Source: Chloroflexota bacterium
GTDB taxonomy: Bacteria; Chloroflexota; Dehalococcoidia; Lucifugimonadales; Lucifugimonadaceae
Direction of reading: 5' to 3'
NCBI GenBank assembly: GCA_002721675.1
Contig: PBLC01000006.1
Coordinates: forward strand, 5,840-40,625
DNA: 34,786 nt
A model generated the notes under the pieces. That model was not told where the DNA came from. It saw only the letters and a program-made list of their open reading frames with translations, and ran no database searches. Of the stretch, positions 5,275-13,456 are shown piece after piece (the stretch's first letter is position 1; every line of letters begins with the position of its first letter). Made by a program: the position numbers and the translations under genes.

Positions 5275-5604
5275 TTAAAGTTTTTTATAATCTTCTCTTG
5301 GAGGAGAAAATATATCCAAAGCAAGTGAATTGGAATCATTCCCATGCGCACTATGAGGAACATTAGGAGGTATTAAGTAATGATCCCCTTCTTTTAATAG
5401 TCTTTCTTCGCCATCAACTATTAATTTGAATGAACCAGATAAAACTCTTCCTGCTTGCTCATTTGGATGGGTATGAGTCGGAACTTCAGCATGAGGTGAT
5501 ATATCAACTAGCATCATCATTATTTTTTCTCCCCACATTATTCTAACCTTTACGCCAGGATGAATTTCTTTAGACTCTATATCATTTTGATCAAAAAAAG
5601 GCAT
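5275..5604 (-). CDS. Small cupin-domain protein
   Basis: A single-domain cupin of 109 residues. Motif 1 is PTHTHPNEQAGRVLSG, carrying the His, His and Glu-type metal ligands, and motif 2 is HYLIPPNVPHSAHG with the later histidine. Cupins of this size can be sensors, isomerases or dioxygenases, so the substrate cannot be named. The ATG overlaps the stop of the upstream ThDP enzyme (TAATG), making it the last gene of the long minus-strand operon; it may act on the same metabolite. Confidence 0.82.
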   Translation of the reverse strand: MPFFDQNDIESKEIHPGVKVRIMWGEKIMMMLVDISPHAEVPTHTHPNEQAGRVLSGSFKLIVDGEERLLKEGDHYLIPPNVPHSAHGNDSNSLALDIFSPPREDYKKL

Positions 5605-7286
5605 TATCCGTGAGTTCCTAACTTTCTAGTAACTGCTGCATCTGCAACAGGACTAGCTATTTTTTTTACAATAGTGTTTATCAATGAAATTTTACTCGTT
5701 TGTAATGATTTTTTAATCTCTTTCTTTAGGTCCATTGGCTTATCTACTATTACCCCATTAGCACCAAAACCTTTAGCGATAAGTTCATAATTTGTCTGAT
5801 CTAACTTTGTCCACACATCTCTGTTATATAAACCTTTTTGTATCCAATAATCGATCCCCCACAAACTATTATTTCCAACAATAACTGTAACAGGCAAGTT
5901 ATGCCTAACTGATGTATCTATCTCTGGAACATGAAAGCCTAAAGAACCATCTCCAACAACTAAAACTACTTTCTTGTCAGGCATTGCCGCTTTAGCACCT
6001 ATAGCATACGGAAGTCCAACCCCTATCATTCCAAAACTACTTACGTACATTGACCTTAGATAATTTTCTACTGGTACAGTAGCTCTAGAATAATGACAAT
6101 AATCACCTCCATCAAAAATCACAAATGTATCATCGTCAATACTATCTCTAATTGCTTTGCTTATTTCCATAGGATGCATTGGAATAGAGTTGTCAGCTAA
6201 ATCATCCATTTCATTAAGATAATCCTGTTTTGTTTTTTTTAAAGATTTTATCCAATTATCACTTTGCCATTTAAATTCCCCAATCTTATCTGCAATGCTT
6301 TTAACAAAAGGTCCTACATCACTATTTATTGCCAAATCAATTGTTCTTGGACGATTAATTTGTGAAATTTCAGGATCAACACTTATTATTACACCTTCTT
6401 TAGCAAATGGCGGAGAGCCTCCAAATCCTAATTGATAATCAAGTTTAACTCCAAGCAATAAAACAACATCACACTCATTCACTCTTTGAGCAGCTTTGTT
6501 AAGAGGAATATATCCAATTCCTAATGAATTTGGGTGTGAGTCTCCAACTAAACCCCTTGCTGTATCTACGCCCATGAAAGGAATATTAGTCTTAAGTAAA
6601 AACTTATCCAAATCTTTTGGTGATACTGTCGCGCCAGCTCCAAGTCCAGCAATAATCATTGGTTTCTTTGCATTATTTAATAAATCTAAACATTTACTAA
6701 CTTGAACAGGACTAGGGTAGGTAAGCCAATTGTCTTGATCATCCAAAGAACTTTTTTCAAATCTTTCAAATACTTCTTCATCTACCACAGATTCTTGAAT
6801 ATCATGAGGTATTGTCAGATGAACTGGCCCCCTGCGACCTTCCATTGCAGTTCTAAAGGCTAAAGATATATATTCAGGAATTCTTTCTGCTGAAGGTATT
6901 TCCCATGAACCTTTAGTTACTGGATTGGCAATTCCAATTTGGTCAAATTCCTGCATAGCCCCTCTGCCTATATTTGTTGAATCTGCTGAACCTGCAATAT
7001 TGATTACAGGAGCTTCAGAATGCATGGCATTTGCAAGGCCAGCTAGTGCATTTGCATGACCTGGAGTAGTAGACATAACAACCCCTGGCTTTCTTAAAAT
7101 TCTTGAATATGCGTTAGCCATATGAACTGATGCTGCTTCATGTCTACCATCAATCATTCTAAAATCTTGATCAATGAGTTTATCTAAAAGGTGAAGTATA
7201 TGATCTCCAGCAATACCAAAAATAGTATCGACGCCGTACATTTTTAGACATTTAATTATTAAATCGCTTCCAGTAATTTTAGTCAC
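5604..7286 (-). CDS. ThDP-dependent lyase/decarboxylase, acetolactate synthase-like
   Basis: A 560-residue ThDP enzyme with the standard three-domain order. The pyrimidine domain has the activating glutamate in DGRHEAASVHMA (Glu50), the middle nucleotide-like domain spans roughly 195-330, and the PP domain carries GDGSLGFH at 445-452 with the Mg-binding NN at 472-473. The family covers acetolactate synthase, oxalyl-CoA decarboxylase, 2-hydroxyacyl-CoA lyase and benzaldehyde lyase. No small regulatory ALS subunit is nearby, so a catabolic lyase or decarboxylase is more likely than branched-chain amino acid synthesis. The start is a GTG that shares one base with the stop of the upstream permease (TAGTG). 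The operon context suggests cleavage or decarboxylation of a 2-keto or 2-hydroxy acid; the substrate is unknown. Confidence 0.85.
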   Translation of the reverse strand: MTKITGSDLIIKCLKMYGVDTIFGIAGDHILHLLDKLIDQDFRMIDGRHEAASVHMANAYSRILRKPGVVMSTTPGHANALAGLANAMHSEAPVINIAGSADSTNIGRGAMQEFDQIGIANPVTKGSWEIPSAERIPEYISLAFRTAMEGRRGPVHLTIPHDIQESVVDEEVFERFEKSSLDDQDNWLTYPSPVQVSKCLDLLNNAKKPMIIAGLGAGATVSPKDLDKFLLKTNIPFMGVDTARGLVGDSHPNSLGIGYIPLNKAAQRVNECDVVLLLGVKLDYQLGFGGSPPFAKEGVIISVDPEISQINRPRTIDLAINSDVGPFVKSIADKIGEFKWQSDNWIKSLKKTKQDYLNEMDDLADNSIPMHPMEISKAIRDSIDDDTFVIFDGGDYCHYSRATVPVENYLRSMYVSSFGMIGVGLPYAIGAKAAMPDKKVVLVVGDGSLGFHVPEIDTSVRHNLPVTVIVGNNSLWGIDYWIQKGLYNRDVWTKLDQTNYELIAKGFGANGVIVDKPMDLKKEIKKSLQTSKISLINTIVKKIASPVADAAVTRKLGTHG

Positions 7287-7999
7287 TATATAAATTCCCT
7301 GTAAATCATAAGTATGCCCATTATAAATAATATTACATAAAGAGTCTTTAATATGAATTGATTAGAATATTTTGCTACATGCTTAGAACCAATATATGAG
7401 CCTAAAAACCCTGCAATTGCAAGCGGAATAAATAATTTGATATCAAAATGGCTATTGCCTGTAACTCCAGAGGTAATAAGGTGACCCAAAAATGCGAAAA
7501 TTGTAAAAATTAAATTTATAAAAGAATTCGTTGCAGATGCCGACTTAGCATCAGTTTTTAAATAATTTATCATTACAGGATATCTTAATGCACCCAAAAC
7601 CATCCCTACCGAACCTCCTAGTGCCCCAATCCCCATATTTAAACTGGAGGCTATTATATTCTTAATATTAGAGGTTTCATTTGAAGCAGTTTTTCTAGAA
7701 GGGAAATGTACTACCTGAAAAATTAATATCCCGGACACAATTATCAAAATTGTAACTATCAATAATAATAATTCTTGAGAGAAATATTCACTTAACAATC
7801 CTCCAAATAATGGGCCTATAATTGCACCAGAAATAAGAAAAAGGATACCTAATTTGAAATCAATTCTGTTATTTTTAAAGTTATTCCATACTGTCGGCAG
7901 CATCATAGCAAAACTTATAGCTAAATTTGTCCCAAAAACAACCAATGCTTCAATGCCAAAGAAAAGCATAAAAAATATTCTTATTGGTCCTAATGGCAT
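7286..7999 (-). CDS. TauE/SafE family permease
   Basis: A multi-pass membrane protein of the TauE/SafE family, whose members move sulfite, sulfonates or organic anions. Both halves show the repeat-like pattern (PLGPIRIFFML...GTNLAISFAMMLP, and SVGMVLGALRYPVMINYL...ATNSFINLIF). From the ATG at 7999 there are 237 residues, slightly short. The reading frame stays open for 27 more codons upstream (8000-8080) and encodes a hydrophobic stretch including SFLILTICLLISGYFAGLVG, which matches the missing first membrane segment. That extension has no ATG, GTG or TTG, so translation may begin at a rare codon (ATA, ATT or CTG) or the segment may be lost. It probably exports or imports an intermediate of the operon's pathway. 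Confidence 0.8.
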   Translation of the reverse strand: MPLGPIRIFFMLFFGIEALVVFGTNLAISFAMMLPTVWNNFKNNRIDFKLGILFLISGAIIGPLFGGLLSEYFSQELLLLIVTILIIVSGILIFQVVHFPSRKTASNETSNIKNIIASSLNMGIGALGGSVGMVLGALRYPVMINYLKTDAKSASATNSFINLIFTIFAFLGHLITSGVTGNSHFDIKLFIPLAIAGFLGSYIGSKHVAKYSNQFILKTLYVILFIMGILMIYREFI

Positions 8000-8076
8000 T
8001 CCTACTAAGCCAGCAAAATAACCTGAAATTAAAAGGCAAATTGTGAGAATTAGAAAACTTATTATGCTTAGTTCGC

Positions 8077-8961
8077 TCAGCCTTCAAGCCTTTCTATCAT
8101 TCTATCAAGTTCATATATTTGGTCTTGGTCTGGCCTAAGAGATGGTTCTCTCGCATATACTTCGGTAAATATTCCTTTTTTCTTTAAAATATATTTTGGT
8201 AACCAGTTCCAAATTCCTAGTCCCTGGCCTAATGTTCTAATTAATGGAATATAATTATGAAAATATTCTTCTGCCTCAGATTCTTTTCCTTCAATCCATA
8301 AATTGAAAACCTTAACGAACATTTCAGGAATTGCACATACAGGCATTGTTCCTTGAGATCCTCTTCTCATCTCTTCTATCATAAATAGCCCTCCAGCTCC
8401 CCCAAAAGGAATTGGCAATTTACCGTTAGCAATTTTCTTAAGTTTGTTGAATCTAGGCAATGTAGGAGGTACTTCAACCTTAAGGTAAGCTAGATTTTCA
8501 TTAGCCTGAGATAACTCAAAAGCTAATTCTGGAGATATAGGGGTCTCAAAAACATCCTGCATAAAAATAGGAATTTCTATTGATTCGGCTACATTAATAA
8601 AATATTTTTTTATTTCGCTTGAATCAATGCCTCCAAATGCAGGAGGGGCAATCATAACAGCATCTGCACCAAAATCTTGGGCTTTTTTTGAATACTCTAC
8701 ACACATTTTTGTTGATTCTGCTGAAGTATTCATACAAACTTTTATCCTATTGTTAGAATAATTAACTACTTTTTTAAGTAAATCATCTCTCTCTGAGTCA
8801 GTTAATTTATAGATCTCGCTAGCAAGTGCGATTGCTATTCCACTAACTCCAGAATCAATAGCATATTCAATCTCGGATTGAACATCATTAAATATAATAT
8901 TGTCATTAGAATCAAAAGGGGTGGATAGTATTGGGAAAACCCCACTCATAAAGTCAGACAT
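8077..8961 (-). CDS. DapA/NAL-family aldolase or dehydratase with altered active site
   Basis: A 294-residue TIM-barrel protein of the dihydrodipicolinate synthase/N-acetylneuraminate lyase family. The Schiff-base lysine is in LAYLKVEVPPT (Lys161), and FGGAGGLFMIEEM matches the later glycine-rich loop. Two usual active-site features differ: the GTTGE-type loop is ALASE (46-50), and the usual LYNVP tyrosine position reads MQDVF (134-138), so the proton-shuttle tyrosine is absent. True lysine biosynthesis is therefore unlikely; a lyase or dehydratase acting on a 2-keto acid is more plausible. A strong AGGAGG ribosome-binding site lies just before the ATG. It follows the decarboxylase beta subunit by seven bases. 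Confidence 0.85.
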   Translation of the reverse strand: MSDFMSGVFPILSTPFDSNDNIIFNDVQSEIEYAIDSGVSGIAIALASEIYKLTDSERDDLLKKVVNYSNNRIKVCMNTSAESTKMCVEYSKKAQDFGADAVMIAPPAFGGIDSSEIKKYFINVAESIEIPIFMQDVFETPISPELAFELSQANENLAYLKVEVPPTLPRFNKLKKIANGKLPIPFGGAGGLFMIEEMRRGSQGTMPVCAIPEMFVKVFNLWIEGKESEAEEYFHNYIPLIRTLGQGLGIWNWLPKYILKKKGIFTEVYAREPSLRPDQDQIYELDRMIERLEG

Positions 8962-8968
8962 AAACCTC

Positions 8969-10168
8969 CTATATTAATGATTCCACTAGTGTTATAAGCA
9001 CTCCAGCAACAGTTGCTGTGCCTATCACTCCAGCTATATTAGGACCCATAGCATGCATTAAAAGCATGTTGCCGGGTTTCTCTTTTTGAGCAATTTCTTG
9101 AACAACTCTTGCTGCCATAGGAACTGCAGAAACTCCAGCAGCACCAATCATAGGATTTATTTTTTCCTTGCTTAGCAGATTCATTAATTTAGCAAGTAAT
9201 AATCCTGATATTGTCGCAGTAATAAATGCAAATAAACCAAGAAAGAATATTGCTAGAGTTGCGGGTCTAAGAAAAACTTCTCCTGGCATGGTAGATCCGA
9301 CAGCCAACCCAAGGATGATAACAACAATATTCATAAGTTCATTTTGAGCAGTATTGCTTAACCTCTCAACAACACCACACTCTCTCATTAAATTACCAAA
9401 CATTAATATTCCAACTAATGGTGCTGCTTTTGGAACAAGAACGCCAATAACGATAGTACATATTATCGGAAATAAAATTTTAGCCCTTTTAGTGACAACA
9501 TTCTTAGGGGCTGGCATTTCAATTTGTCTTTCTTTTTTTGTTGTAAGCAACTTAATAATTGGAGGTTGAATTAACGGAACTAATGCCATGTAGGAATATG
9601 CTGCAACTGCTGTAGCACCAACAATATCAATCATTTCTACTCCGTATTGCTGACTTAATGATTTCATATTTGAAGCAATAAAAATTGTCGTGGGCCCATC
9701 AGCTCCACCAATTATTCCAACTGAAGTTGCTTCTAATAATCCAAAATTTAAGGAAGAAAAACCTAAAGTTCCGATCAACAATGTTCCGATCAGCGCAAAA
9801 AATACTCCAGCTTGAGCTGCTGCTCCCAATAACAATGTTTTAGGATTAGAAATCACTGGTGAAAAATCTGTTAATGCCCCTAGTCCCAGAAAAACTAATA
9901 ATGGAAGGAGGTCTGTATGCAATCCTTTTTCTTGAAAAAAGAGCAAAAAACCCATTGGGTCACCTTCTTTTCCAGCAGGCTTAATAACCTCTCCAAGAGG
10001 CAGATTAGCTAATAAAATTCCGAATGAAATGGGAACTAATAAAAGCGGTTCCTTCTTTTTAGCAATACCAAAATATAATAGAAACCCTGCAACAAACCAC
10101 ATCACGACCCCTCTGGGATCTTGAAAGATACTTAATAAGCCCTCAAATATTAATTTAACGTCATCCAA
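8969..10168 (-). CDS. oadB: Sodium-pumping decarboxylase, beta subunit
   Basis: A 399-residue membrane protein of the OadB/GcdB/MmdB family, which decarboxylates carboxybiotin and uses the energy to export sodium. The hallmark GGADGPTTIFIA is at 154-165, containing the conserved sodium-coupling aspartate (Asp157). The second conserved loop near the C-terminus reads MGPNIAGVIGTAT. The rest is a series of hydrophobic helices. The biotin carrier ends four bases upstream. The same beta subunit serves oxaloacetate, methylmalonyl-CoA, malonate and glutaconyl-CoA decarboxylases, so the substrate depends on a carboxyltransferase; no classical one is present in the window. Confidence 0.93.
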   Translation of the reverse strand: MDDVKLIFEGLLSIFQDPRGVVMWFVAGFLLYFGIAKKKEPLLLVPISFGILLANLPLGEVIKPAGKEGDPMGFLLFFQEKGLHTDLLPLLVFLGLGALTDFSPVISNPKTLLLGAAAQAGVFFALIGTLLIGTLGFSSLNFGLLEATSVGIIGGADGPTTIFIASNMKSLSQQYGVEMIDIVGATAVAAYSYMALVPLIQPPIIKLLTTKKERQIEMPAPKNVVTKRAKILFPIICTIVIGVLVPKAAPLVGILMFGNLMRECGVVERLSNTAQNELMNIVVIILGLAVGSTMPGEVFLRPATLAIFFLGLFAFITATISGLLLAKLMNLLSKEKINPMIGAAGVSAVPMAARVVQEIAQKEKPGNMLLMHAMGPNIAGVIGTATVAGVLITLVESLI

Positions 10169-10172
10169 TTTA

Positions 10173-10610
10173 TCACCTTATTACTAACATTACTGAGCCA
10201 ACTTCTATTGTTTCACCTTCGCTAACGTTTAAACTCTCTATTACTCCATCAGCAGAAGATACTATTGTTTGCTCCATTTTCATTGACTCCATAATAATAA
10301 CTGGCTCACCCATTTTTATTTCTTGCCCTTCACTAACTAGAACTTTAATTATCTTTCCTGGCATTAATGCTAATAGGTCTCCAGGATTTTCTTGTACAGA
10401 TTTTTCTGCTTTTTTAGGTTCTGCTTTTTTAGGTTCTGCTTTTTTAGGTTCTGCTTTTTTAGGTTCTGCTTTTTTAGGTTCTGATGACCCATTCGAAATC
10501 TTAATATCAAAATCTTTATTGTTAACTTTTACTTCCGCATTATCAGAATTTACTAGATTCACTTCTACTTCAAATTTTTTCCCATCTATCTCGAAATTAT
10601 ATTTTTTCAT
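10173..10610 (-). CDS. Biotin carboxyl carrier protein of the decarboxylase
   Basis: A 145-residue biotin carrier. An N-terminal segment of about 40 residues (YNFEIDGKKFEVEV) precedes a Lys/Glu/Pro/Ala linker at 42-72 made of five EPKKA units. The lipoyl/biotinyl domain follows, with the biotinylation site ESMKMEQ (Lys111) 35 residues from the C-terminus, the expected spacing. In sodium-pumping decarboxylases this domain shuttles carboxyl groups from the carboxyltransferase to the beta subunit, and the flexible linker is typical. The gene lies between the gamma and beta subunit genes; its ATG directly follows the gamma stop. Confidence 0.93.
   Translation of the reverse strand: MKKYNFEIDGKKFEVEVNLVNSDNAEVKVNNKDFDIKISNGSSEPKKAEPKKAEPKKAEPKKAEPKKAEKSVQENPGDLLALMPGKIIKVLVSEGQEIKMGEPVIIMESMKMEQTIVSSADGVIESLNVSEGETIEVGSVMLVIR
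10406..10480. repeat. Five exact tandem copies of a 15-base unit in the biotin carrier linker
   Basis: The unit ctgcttttttaggtt (plus strand) occurs five times in succession without a mismatch, encoding five EPKKA units on the minus strand. Perfect nucleotide identity suggests recent expansion by slippage or unequal recombination. Copy number changes would alter linker length by five residues without breaking the frame. Confidence 0.93.
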
Positions 10611-10934
10611 TTAGCTACCTCTACCTTTAAATAATCTTTGTTGGCCTAAGGCTTTCCAGTTAGAATTCTCAAATTTAACTTCAGGTTCTTTTAAAGAGAT
10701 ATTTTCATCTTTATTATCCTCCAATGCTAGGCTCACCCCAACTAAAGCAGCGGTAAGTTCTAATTTTGAAAAGTTCTCATTAGTAGAAATCTTAGTTAAT
10801 TCATTTGAAGTATTATTAAAACTTTTTTTACTTTCTATTAAATTTAATAAAGTTATAGCGATCAGAAGTATTATTAAAACCAAAAAAACAATAGCCAGCC
10901 CAACTAATGAAACATATAAGCCATCAGATATCAT
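10611..10934 (-). CDS. oadG: Sodium-pumping decarboxylase, gamma-like subunit
   Basis: A 107-residue protein with a single N-terminal membrane helix (VSLVGLAIVFLVLIILLIAI) beginning SDGLYVSLVGLAIVF, the pattern of OadG family proteins, followed by a polar low-complexity tail. OadG-type subunits assemble the decarboxylase at the membrane and bind the biotin and carboxyltransferase parts. The assignment rests on size, topology and its place directly before the biotin carrier and beta subunit; sequence conservation in this family is low. Confidence 0.75.
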   Translation of the reverse strand: MISDGLYVSLVGLAIVFLVLIILLIAITLLNLIESKKSFNNTSNELTKISTNENFSKLELTAALVGVSLALEDNKDENISLKEPEVKFENSNWKALGQQRLFKGRGS

Positions 10935-10983
10935 TTACCTTCTCCTCTGTTATTTCCAAGTAGTATTATATTAGCAATAACAC

Positions 10984-12045
10984 CTAAAACTCTAATTTAA
11001 TTGGTTTACCATTAATTGTTATATTTTTTTTATTTTTTATACCTAATTTAATAGCAAATTCTTTCTCATCATGAATTAATGTAAATTCTCTCTGATATAA
11101 ATTTTCAGATAAATTGTCTTCAAAAAAATCAATCTCCATTTCTTTAACCTTATTATGAGCTTCTTCAATAGAGATCAAATTAAACATTACATCATCCCCT
11201 GGCCTTAGTTGACTAAAATAATTTAAACTTGCAGTGGTCAAACTTATAATTCTAGGATAGCCTCCTATCCTCTGAGAATCTTCCATTAATACATATAATT
11301 TACCATCGCTAGGAACTTGTATAACACCTTTAGATGTTCCATCAGAAATAATATCACGAAAGTTTTTAGAAAATTCAATTTTTTTTCCCTCTAAAACTAC
11401 TCCAGTTCTACCCATTCTATTAGATATTTTAAACTTAGAATCAAATAATTCTTTTTTACTCTTATTTGAAAGATTATTGAATTCTGGACCTTTAATTACA
11501 TCTAACTTTTTTTTATTTGCTAAAACTTGAGAAAATTTATAATAATCTGGATAAACATCTAATTTGTAATTTTTCAGATCCTCTGGTCCTGAATCACAAT
11601 ACAAATAGTCATTAATTGCTAATTTTTTTCCACCAATATTAAATGTTGAATGAGTCGAAGAAGATTTCATTATTTCTTTTAGGGCAAACCCATTTTTTAT
11701 AGCAAGATAAGATCTTAATCCATTTTTTGATACATGAAATGTCAAAATATCCCCCCTATCTACTTGAATTGTTTCCCACATTTTTACGGGAATAGAATTA
11801 ATTTTAGGATTCATATCAGAGCCCGTAATTGCAATTGAACATTCTTTATAAAACTCTAGTTCAAGATTACCGTGAATTATCTCAATGCTAGGCACATCAT
11901 CATTACCCAATACAAGATTGCCTAATCTGTAAGACAACATATCTCCAGCACCAGAATTTGGAACTCCTTGATTTTCATAACCATATCTCCCAGAATCTTG
12001 AATACTGGAGAATGGGGGGTTATTTATCACTTTTAGTATTTTCAT
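10984..12045 (-). CDS. pxpC: PxpC/KipA-type carboxyltransferase-like subunit
   Basis: A 353-residue protein of the KipA/AHS2 family. The N-terminal signature is SSIQDSGRYGYENQGVPNSG with GAGD following, and later blocks include CSIAITGSDMNPKIN and SNRMGRTGVVLEG. In Escherichia coli-type 5-oxoprolinase, PxpC works with PxpA and PxpB to hydrolyse 5-oxoproline using ATP. The same fold forms the carboxyltransferase part of urea carboxylase. The start overlaps the PxpB stop by four bases (ATGA-type), typical of the pair. Immediately downstream are the decarboxylase gamma, biotin and beta subunits, which raises the possibility that this subunit works on carboxybiotin rather than 5-oxoproline. Confidence 0.9.
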   Translation of the reverse strand: MKILKVINNPPFSSIQDSGRYGYENQGVPNSGAGDMLSYRLGNLVLGNDDVPSIEIIHGNLELEFYKECSIAITGSDMNPKINSIPVKMWETIQVDRGDILTFHVSKNGLRSYLAIKNGFALKEIMKSSSTHSTFNIGGKKLAINDYLYCDSGPEDLKNYKLDVYPDYYKFSQVLANKKKLDVIKGPEFNNLSNKSKKELFDSKFKISNRMGRTGVVLEGKKIEFSKNFRDIISDGTSKGVIQVPSDGKLYVLMEDSQRIGGYPRIISLTTASLNYFSQLRPGDDVMFNLISIEEAHNKVKEMEIDFFEDNLSENLYQREFTLIHDEKEFAIKLGIKNKKNITINGKPIKLEF

Positions 12046-12686
12046 AGTGGAATAAATTTTATTATCATACCTGGGCTAATTAAACTTGGGCTATCCTTTG
12101 TCTCATCAAAAAGTTTTAAGTTGGTATTTCCTATTATCCTCCAACCTCCAGAAGATTTTAGTGGATAGATCCCTGTTTGCTTGTCTGCTATAGCTACTGA
12201 TCCAGCAGGTACTTCAACTCTTGGGGTTGAAAGTCTAGGGCATTCTAATCGTTTATCAAGACCGCCTAAGTATGGAAAGCCAGGAGAAAATCCAACCATG
12301 AAAACATAATAAGATTTCGAAGAATGAATATTAATAATTTGTTCCTGACTTAAAGATAAAATCTTTGCTAAATCCCTTAAATCCTGTCCGTTTTTGCCTC
12401 CATATTTAACTGGAATTTCTAAAATTTGCGACTCAATTTTTTCATAACTTTTTATTGTTTTGTTCAATTTTTCGACTTGCCTTATTATTTCAATTCTTTC
12501 TATCAATAATGGGTTATATGTAACAATTAAAGAGGTATATGTTGGATAGATTGATAATAAATCTAGATCATCATTGGTTAAGGATTTTGATAATAAATTT
12601 ATATGCTGATTTGCTTTTTCATCTATAAAATTCGAAAAATTAAAAGCTAAACTGGAATCACTAATATCTTGGATTCTAAACTCCAT
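12042..12686 (-). CDS. pxpB: PxpB/KipI-type carboxyltransferase-like subunit
   Basis: A 214-residue KipI/AHS1 family protein. The hallmark MVGFSPGFPYL is at 130-140, followed by CPRLSTPRVEVPAGSVAIA and the GIYPLKSSGGWRIIG block. It pairs with the KipA-type protein encoded next. In 5-oxoprolinase the pair forms one subunit complex; in urea carboxylase the homologous domains are fused and transfer carboxyl from biotin to urea. At 214 residues it is slightly shorter than typical homologues but complete. The five-base gap after the PxpA-like stop supports co-expression. Confidence 0.9.
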   Translation of the reverse strand: MEFRIQDISDSSLAFNFSNFIDEKANQHINLLSKSLTNDDLDLLSIYPTYTSLIVTYNPLLIERIEIIRQVEKLNKTIKSYEKIESQILEIPVKYGGKNGQDLRDLAKILSLSQEQIINIHSSKSYYVFMVGFSPGFPYLGGLDKRLECPRLSTPRVEVPAGSVAIADKQTGIYPLKSSGGWRIIGNTNLKLFDETKDSPSLISPGMIIKFIPL

Positions 12687-12691
12687 AAGTT

Positions 12692-13456
12692 CTAATCGAT
12701 AAAATCAGTCATTTTTGTTACTTCGCATCCCATTCTAATTAATTCTTCCTTTATTGCCTTTGCCAATTCAACAGATTCTTCGTTGTCTCCATGAAGACAT
12801 ATCGTATCAATTTGAAGATTAATTTCTTTTCCTTTAATTGTTTTAACTTTTCCCTTTAAAGCCATGCTTATAACTCTTTCTAGTATCTCGTCATGATTTT
12901 TTAAGACAGAGCCAGGAATATTCCTACTCACCAATTGACCGTCATCCGTATAAGCTCTATCTGCAAAACCTTCTCTAGAAAATTTAACCTTTTTTGATTT
13001 TACAAAATCTTCCCAAACGGAATTTGCTAAAACTACATGAATAATTTCTGGGTCAAAATTTAAAATTGAATCAAATATTGGTTCTACAATTTTAATATCT
13101 TTTGCTGCTGCATTATAAAGTGCTCCATGAGGCTTGACGTGACTTATTTTGTCTTTCACAAATGCGGATAAAGCCCCTATTTGGTACGTCATAATATTAT
13201 TTATAGAGGCTTTACTCATCTCCATAAACCTTCTGCCAAATCCTTGAAGGTCTGGAAAACTTGGATGTGCTCCAATTGAATTATTATTTTGCAAAGCTAA
13301 ATCTACGGTTTTACTTATTGAGTCAGGGTCTCCAGAATGAAAACCAGTAGCTATATTAACTGAGGTCACATGAGGTGAAATAAACTCATCTTTCCCGGAC
13401 TTCATAAGGCCATAGGATTCGCCAATATCTGCATTTAAATCTATTACACCATTCAT
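12692..13456 (-). CDS. pxpA: PxpA (LamB/YcsF family) 5-oxoprolinase-type subunit
   Basis: A 254-residue LamB/YcsF protein with the family blocks IDLNADIGESYG at the N-terminus, SVNIATGFHSGDP, IGAHPSFPDLQGFGRR and ICLHGDNEESVELA near the C-terminus. In the known complex PxpA acts with PxpB and PxpC to open 5-oxoproline (pyroglutamate) to glutamate. The usual NIACGFHAGDP block has a threonine in place of the cysteine here. It is the first of the three pxp genes in the direction of transcription and starts two bases after the Gfo/Idh gene ends. Confidence 0.92.
   Translation of the reverse strand: MNGVIDLNADIGESYGLMKSGKDEFISPHVTSVNIATGFHSGDPDSISKTVDLALQNNNSIGAHPSFPDLQGFGRRFMEMSKASINNIMTYQIGALSAFVKDKISHVKPHGALYNAAAKDIKIVEPIFDSILNFDPEIIHVVLANSVWEDFVKSKKVKFSREGFADRAYTDDGQLVSRNIPGSVLKNHDEILERVISMALKGKVKTIKGKEINLQIDTICLHGDNEESVELAKAIKEELIRMGCEVTKMTDFID

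Follow-up and report, generated by a model that had tools for sequence, protein, structure and literature searches.

A pxpABC-oadG-BCCP-oadB gene cluster combining a 5-oxoprolinase-type carboxyltransferase with a sodium pump in marine Chloroflexota

Introduction

The locus described here raises the question of what a carboxyltransferase of the 5-oxoprolinase type does beside a biotin carrier and a sodium pump. It lies in a stretch of 34,786 nucleotides (the window; positions 5,840 to 40,625 of contig PBLC01000006.1, assembly GCA_002721675.1) from a bacterium of the Chloroflexota family Lucifugimonadaceae, and consists of the genes for PxpA, PxpB (KipI), PxpC (KipA), an OadG-like protein, the biotin carrier BCCP and OadB. 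The gene module is real, conserved and unusual, and combines two known kinds of system. As an answer we put forward, at somewhat less than an even chance, a biotin hub with a single carrier, in which the sodium pump would stand in place of biotin carboxylase and the 5-oxoprolinase-type carboxyltransferase would be built in.

Composition of the cluster

The six genes pxpA-pxpB-pxpC-oadG-BCCP-oadB are near-contiguous and all on the minus strand; by the positions of their open reading frames (ORFs), neighbours overlap by up to 4 nt or are separated by at most 49 nt. Gene families were assigned with Pfam and NCBIfam profiles:

12692–13456, minus strand: PxpA (LamB/YcsF), 254 amino acids, putative lactam-opening subunit (PF03746, 287 bits; NF003814, 303.6 bits, cut-off 226).
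12042–12686, minus strand: PxpB (KipI), 214 amino acids, carboxyltransferase subdomains C and D (TIGR00370, 206 bits, cut-off 145.6; PF02682, 221 bits).
10984–12045, minus strand: PxpC (KipA), 353 amino acids, carboxyltransferase subdomains A and B plus a carboxy-terminal extension (PF02626, 226 bits).
10987–11106, minus strand: carboxy-terminal module of PxpC (residues 314–353, approximately), putative association or docking module, homologous to the amino-terminus of BCCP.
10611–10934, minus strand: OadG-like subunit, 107 amino acids, with one amino-terminal membrane helix (PF04277, 31.8 bits, cut-off 27).
10173–10610, minus strand: biotin carrier BCCP, 145 amino acids, comprising an amino-terminal module, a Lys/Pro/Ala linker and the biotin domain (PF00364, 58.8 bits).
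10278–10280, minus strand: codon of the predicted biotinylated Lys111 of BCCP, in the motif MESMKMEQT.
8969–10168, minus strand: OadB, 399 amino acids, carboxybiotin decarboxylase and beta subunit of the sodium pump (PF03977, 469 bits).

A preliminary description of the window, made from its sequence alone, had listed pxpB, pxpC, oadG, the biotin carrier and oadB as consecutive and co-directional. Coordinates and profiles bear this out for the five genes, but the list left out pxpA, which is part of the same unit. The OadG-like protein scores 31.3 bits with TIGR01195, just below the cut-off of 36.05, and PxpC, at 185 bits, does not pass the NCBIfam 5-oxoprolinase equivalog model NF045499 (cut-off 500). 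Lys111 is invariant in the 19 carriers aligned, and the biotin ligase BirA is encoded in the window genome and in 22 of the 23 genomes checked. The OadB residues shown to matter in the oxaloacetate decarboxylase (OAD) of Salmonella (PMC7274780), namely Glu40, Asp203, Tyr227, Arg304, Asn311, Ser382 and Asn412, are all kept in the window OadB.

Conservation of the cluster

The survey covered 76 genomes of the window organism's family of marine or brackish Chloroflexota (the host family); the window genome itself is a 981-kb assembly of 25 contigs, 77% complete. OadB is present in 68 of the 76 genomes, as a single copy except in three genomes whose oadB is divided between contigs, and PxpC is present in 71, always as a single copy. 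Where pxpC and oadB are on one contig (64 genomes), they are 1.0–1.4 kb apart, on the same strand and with pxpC upstream in all but one; with 63 of 64 genomes having both as neighbours, the arrangement is not due to chance. PxpA is linked in nearly all host-family loci long enough to show it. Nearly every OadB locus has an OadG-like ORF upstream of the carrier, which loci without OadB lack, and the genes flanking the six-gene core vary far more than the core does. The adjacency of KipI, KipA, OadG, BCCP and OadB without OadA, to which the preliminary description had drawn attention, is thus held in most of the host family.

The exception to this linkage is the single-contig genome G008, in which the pxp and oad sets (loci L105 and L052) are 142 kb apart. 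There, OadG-BCCP-OadB (L052, 1–6305) is followed by TauE and by genes that, by sequence, seem to encode proteins of the PEP (phosphoenolpyruvate) mutase/isocitrate lyase, citrate synthase and PrpD types. Another locus (L138; G241:C17:41800–58900) contains an intact OadB plus OadB fragments within about 1 kb, one of them with internal stops; these are probably decayed copies.

Elsewhere in the phylum OadB adjoins MmdA/PCC-beta genes (PCC, propionyl-CoA carboxylase) or other partners, and no PxpBC genes occur at the 40 loci inspected there. In other phyla the same cluster was not seen among the matches listed: of the best 80 OadB loci in genome_contigs, two have Pxp genes nearby, both from the host family. 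When the whole cluster was compared with plasmids by DNA, only partial matches were obtained, none covering 80%.

The carboxy-terminal module of PxpC

Every host-family PxpC examined ends in an extension of about 40–60 residues; the PxpCs from beyond the host family used for comparison lack it. This tail aligns with the amino-terminal module of BCCP with an hhalign score of 32.5 (probability 94.5%, E 8e-8), while the best of 60 column shuffles reaches 11.8 and the best window not overlapping the tail 14.2. The carboxy-terminus of the OadA-like proteins of some host-family members is the same module, scoring 33.6 against the carrier and 22.1 against PxpC. In AlphaFold models the strand order is the same in the PxpC tail and the carrier module, at moderate confidence (predicted local distance difference test, pLDDT, around 55–80). 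The PxpC of G008 keeps the carrier-like tail although its pxp and oad genes are so far apart.

The equivalent segments of OAD and glutaconyl-CoA decarboxylase are believed to keep those complexes assembled (PMC7274780, PMC7145394). Judged by sequence, the layout of PxpC is that of OadA, a carboxyltransferase followed by an association module. Since PxpC carries a module homologous to the carrier amino-terminus, PxpBC would belong physically with the carrier; this homology is the strongest sign of such an association, in which the module would have a putative docking role. We consider it likely that PxpBC works with the carrier of the cluster. A division of biotin-linked and standalone PxpCs into separate clades was also considered and rejected, as both intermix in the tree, where the host-family PxpCs group together (support 94/94).

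Fold and active site of PxpBC

The core of the PxpC model (residues 1–313) superposes on E. coli YbgK with a Z-score of 38.3. With the carboxyltransferase of urea amidolyase (PDB entry 5i8i) the Z-score is 37.0, with an rmsd of 2.2 over 308 residues, in agreement with the homology of KipI/KipA to the urea carboxylase carboxyltransferase that had been noted previously. These VIA-align matches reach residue 313, so they concern the core, the tail of residues 314–353 lying outside them.

The catalytic base of urea carboxylase is Lys1605 in the K. lactis numbering (PMC5770610). Its position is occupied by Arg151 in the window PxpB and by arginine in all 19 host-family PxpBs aligned, but also in the biotin-independent E. 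coli PxpB and in five of eight biotin-carboxylase-linked PxpBs; among these eight, lysine is found only in a subgroup from Sulfitobacter, Agrobacterium and Thioclava. Because most biotin-carboxylase-linked PxpBs also have arginine, the residue is uninformative on biotin use and was discarded as a test. The preliminary description had suggested that a lack of conserved biotin-contact residues would speak against its model; the lysine-to-arginine substitution is seen, but it does not discriminate.

Other carboxyltransferases and biotin carboxylase

Profile searches of the window assembly found neither OadA (PF02436) nor biotin carboxylase (PF02785), so that their absence, first remarked for the window, holds for the whole of the 77%-complete assembly. 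The two PF00682 genes of the assembly encode, by length and sequence, 2-isopropylmalate synthase (LeuA) and citramalate synthase (CimA). In the host family the biotin carboxylase domain is present in 12 of the 76 genomes and absent from 64. OadA-like proteins of about 505 amino acids, without a biotin domain, are present in 17, belonging to genera g10 and g4 and in part to g1, g5 and g8. An OadA elsewhere in the genome, regularly paired with this OadB, would have undermined the preliminary scheme; none was found in the window genome or most of its relatives, although the 17 genomes do encode an OadA-like protein. OadA as the sole partner of the pump is ruled out for most of the host family by the same count. 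OadA/5S-like proteins with the carrier-type carboxy-terminal module were seen at L088 (7595–9115, minus strand), L089, L090, L091, L092, L093, L094, L095 and L097, with a patchy distribution in the host family.

A carboxyltransferase of family PF01039 is encoded in all 76 genomes, which rules out that there is no carboxyltransferase elsewhere in the genome and removes the premise of a genome lacking any alpha-type subunit beyond the cluster. In the window genome this gene is located outside the window (G000:C11:30713–32164) and its product is MmdA/PCC-beta-like (TIGR01117, 767 bits, below the cut-off of 998.8). In the PCC-beta tree the sister group of the host family is formed by MmdA genes that in other Chloroflexota are linked to OadB. 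Most host-family genomes encode a second PF01039 protein, which in the two genera inspected is a fused AccD-AccA, located about 3–5 kb from FabD (L158, 6152–7918, plus strand; L162, 6861–8519, minus strand); no biotin carboxylase was found in those genomes. With these proteins so widespread, the pump would not have to rely on PxpBC, and the MmdA-type protein, near-universal and with relatives adjoining OadB, could be its real partner.

The pump would then be a methylmalonyl-CoA decarboxylase or a reversed propionyl-CoA carboxylase, with its carboxyltransferase encoded elsewhere, and PxpABC an ordinary ATP-dependent 5-oxoprolinase sharing the operon by happenstance. This is the main rival and a serious alternative: PxpABC is known to act by itself as an ATP-dependent 5-oxoprolinase (PMC13274462) and the host-family PxpB looks like that of E. 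coli. It leaves unexplained, however, why pxpC and not mmdA keeps the linkage to oadB, why PxpC gained a carrier-like module and why BCCP stays beside PxpC after the loss of OadB and OadG (see below), and we judge it rather unlikely. The preliminary description had itself mentioned an ordinary 5-oxoprolinase with a pump whose alpha subunit is elsewhere; a candidate for that subunit has now been found, but the linkage and the PxpC module remain outside its reach.

Several observations weigh against the biotin hub: the presence of an MmdA-type carboxyltransferase in essentially every host-family genome, with relatives in the phylum beside OadB; the active-site motif of the window PxpB, which is of the E. 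coli type and lacks the lysine of urea carboxylase; the existence of E. coli-type PxpABC without linked biotin genes; and the incompleteness of the window genome. The shared ancestry of the genomes compared below for OadB and biotin carboxylase counts in the same direction.

A single biotin carrier

Of 20 genomes checked, 19, among them the window assembly, have no short biotin carrier ORF other than the BCCP of the cluster. Other biotin/lipoyl domains in these 20 genomes are in frames of E2 length (around 320–510 amino acids) or are a few weak matches in long frames; the exception, a genome of genus g6, also has two fused genes encoding biotin carboxylase, BCCP and carboxyltransferase. The single carrier adjoins PxpC, except in G008, where it adjoins OadB instead. 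One carrier per genome, in most cases without biotin carboxylase, suggests that several carboxyltransferases share it.

A shared carrier might also act as a transcarboxylase shuttle, resembling in principle the Propionibacterium transcarboxylase, which would bring carboxyl groups from methylmalonyl-CoA (through MmdA) or oxaloacetate (through OadA) to PxpBC and AccDA, with OadB merely balancing the pool. The coexistence of one carrier with several carboxyltransferases fits such a shuttle, as do OadA-like proteins that lack a biotin domain of their own and carry the same carboxy-terminal module. Still, with OadA missing from most of the host family and OadB nearly universal in it rather than optional, a shuttle seems very improbable.

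Genera g9 and g12 have lost OadB and OadG, with BCCP still beside PxpC. Two near-complete OadB-less genomes, G059 and G075, keep PxpABC-BCCP, have no OadG ORF there and contain a free biotin carboxylase. As g9 and g12 nest inside OadB-bearing genera in the PCC-beta tree, their loss of OadB looks secondary. In a sample of 400 genomes of the phylum, OadB is found in 24 of the 33 without biotin carboxylase (for 8 of these 24, the assignment rests on their not being listed among the positives) and in 48 of the 367 with it, giving a p of 4e-13 in a Fisher test that ignores shared ancestry. OadB may thus replace biotin carboxylase beyond the host family.

Proposed mechanism

In the biotin hub that we favour, the inward flow of sodium through OadB would drive the pump against its textbook direction, so that the biotin of the carrier would become carboxylated. 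The shared module would hold PxpBC to the carrier and OadG, and PxpBC would pass the carboxyl group from the carrier to a lactam, of which 5-oxoproline is the most likely. PxpA would open the activated ring, yielding glutamate and, again, CO2. BCCP would be shared with the carboxyltransferases of the MmdA/PCC-beta and AccDA types and, in genomes that encode it, with OadA. This sharing of the carrier, like the direction and the substrate, is what we infer.

PxpABC clusters with AccB and AccC are common in other bacteria, so the loading of PxpBC from carboxybiotin has genomic precedent. Reversal of an OadB-type pump was established in vitro by Dimroth and Hilpert in 1984 (as cited in PMC7274780), has in vivo support for the OAD of Halomonas elongata (PMC7545133) and has been proposed for marine Nitrospina (PMC3578206). 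The hydrolysis of 5-oxoproline, with a Keq of about 0.035 (PMC13274462), needs energy. The genomic precedent, the precedents for reversal and this need for energy together favour sodium influx. If PxpBC does pair with the carrier, it is fairly probable that the pump works mainly in the carboxylating direction; given both, 5-oxoproline or a close lactam is quite likely to be the substrate.

This direction is probably opposite to that in the preliminary description, in which an N- or C-carboxylated substrate gives its carboxyl group, through PxpBC, to biotin and OadB then removes it, exporting sodium. Such a decarboxylase would run in the textbook direction of OadB, whose key residues are all kept, and would agree with the lack of biotin carboxylase in the window assembly. 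But no carboxylated substrate of PxpBC is known, the linked PxpA would have no obvious role, and the genomes hold carboxyltransferases of the carboxylation type (AccDA near FabD) for which no other source of carboxybiotin is apparent; we regard this forward reaction as quite improbable. The argument that the absence of AccC fits decarboxylation is weakened, as these carboxyltransferases fit a reversed pump at least as well. The proposed partnership of KipI/KipA, carrier and OadB fares better, being favoured by the stable linkage without OadA and by the docking-like module of PxpC, but an MmdA-type alternative partner exists.

A wider version of the hub, possible but doubtful, is that the whole host family has swapped its ATP-dependent biotin carboxylase for a reversed OadB on one shared carrier. 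The sodium gradient would then pay for the opening of 5-oxoproline, the carboxylation of propionyl-CoA and the formation of malonyl-CoA for fatty acids.

Implications

No paper treating 5-oxoprolinase, oxaloacetate decarboxylase and biotin together was found among the openly available papers searched. If the mechanism is true, the cluster would have, as far as could be found, no forerunner either among sodium-pump systems with a KipI/KipA-type carboxyltransferase at their core or among 5-oxoprolinases powered by an ion gradient. The mechanism would also account for acetyl-CoA- and propionyl-CoA-type carboxyltransferases occurring without biotin carboxylase in a family of marine Chloroflexota: carboxylation would be paid for by the sodium gradient, a cheap source in seawater, instead of by ATP. 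The general question of whether OadB supplies carboxybiotin in genomes without biotin carboxylase becomes testable from sequence.

Neighbouring genes

Downstream of OadB (window positions 5275–8961, minus strand), genes encode a DapA-family protein, a TauE transporter, an acetolactate synthase-like thiamine pyrophosphate (TPP) enzyme and a cupin. The genus keeps these neighbours, and the host family does so in part; the DapA-family gene adjoins OadB in most genera and is usually absent from genus g10.

8077–8961, minus strand: DapA-family aldolase/lyase-like protein, 294 amino acids, kept downstream neighbour (PF00701, 95 bits).
7286–7999, minus strand: TauE/SafE-family transporter, 237 amino acids, frequent downstream neighbour (PF01925, 104 bits).

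Comparison with known systems

Like the sodium-pumping decarboxylases (OAD, methylmalonyl-CoA decarboxylase and glutaconyl-CoA decarboxylase), the cluster has an OadB with all residues for sodium and decarboxylation, an OadG-like subunit and a carrier with a flexible linker. The linked carboxyltransferase, however, is PxpBC, of the urea carboxylase type, rather than OadA, MmdA or GcdA, and PxpA is also present. The similarity to the PxpABC 5-oxoprolinases (E. coli YbgJK-PxpA and B. subtilis) comprises the presence of PxpA, PxpB and PxpC in one operon, the PxpC core (Z-score of 38 with YbgK) and a similar PxpB motif; the linked carrier, OadG and OadB, the extra module of PxpC and its score far below the equivalog cut-off set the cluster apart. 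Urea carboxylase has homologous carboxyltransferase halves and the same A/B fold, while here the subunits are separate, a biotin carboxylase domain is lacking and Lys1605 is replaced by arginine.

PxpABC also lies beside a biotin carrier in the biotin-carboxylase-linked clusters of Rhizobium, Bradyrhizobium, Sulfitobacter and Lactiplantibacillus plasmids. There, AccC supplies the carboxybiotin and no PxpC module is seen, whereas here OadB and OadG are in its place. With the anaplerotic OAD of Halomonas elongata the cluster would share sodium-driven carboxylation by an OadB-type pump, using PxpBC and other carboxyltransferases where Halomonas uses OadA and pyruvate.

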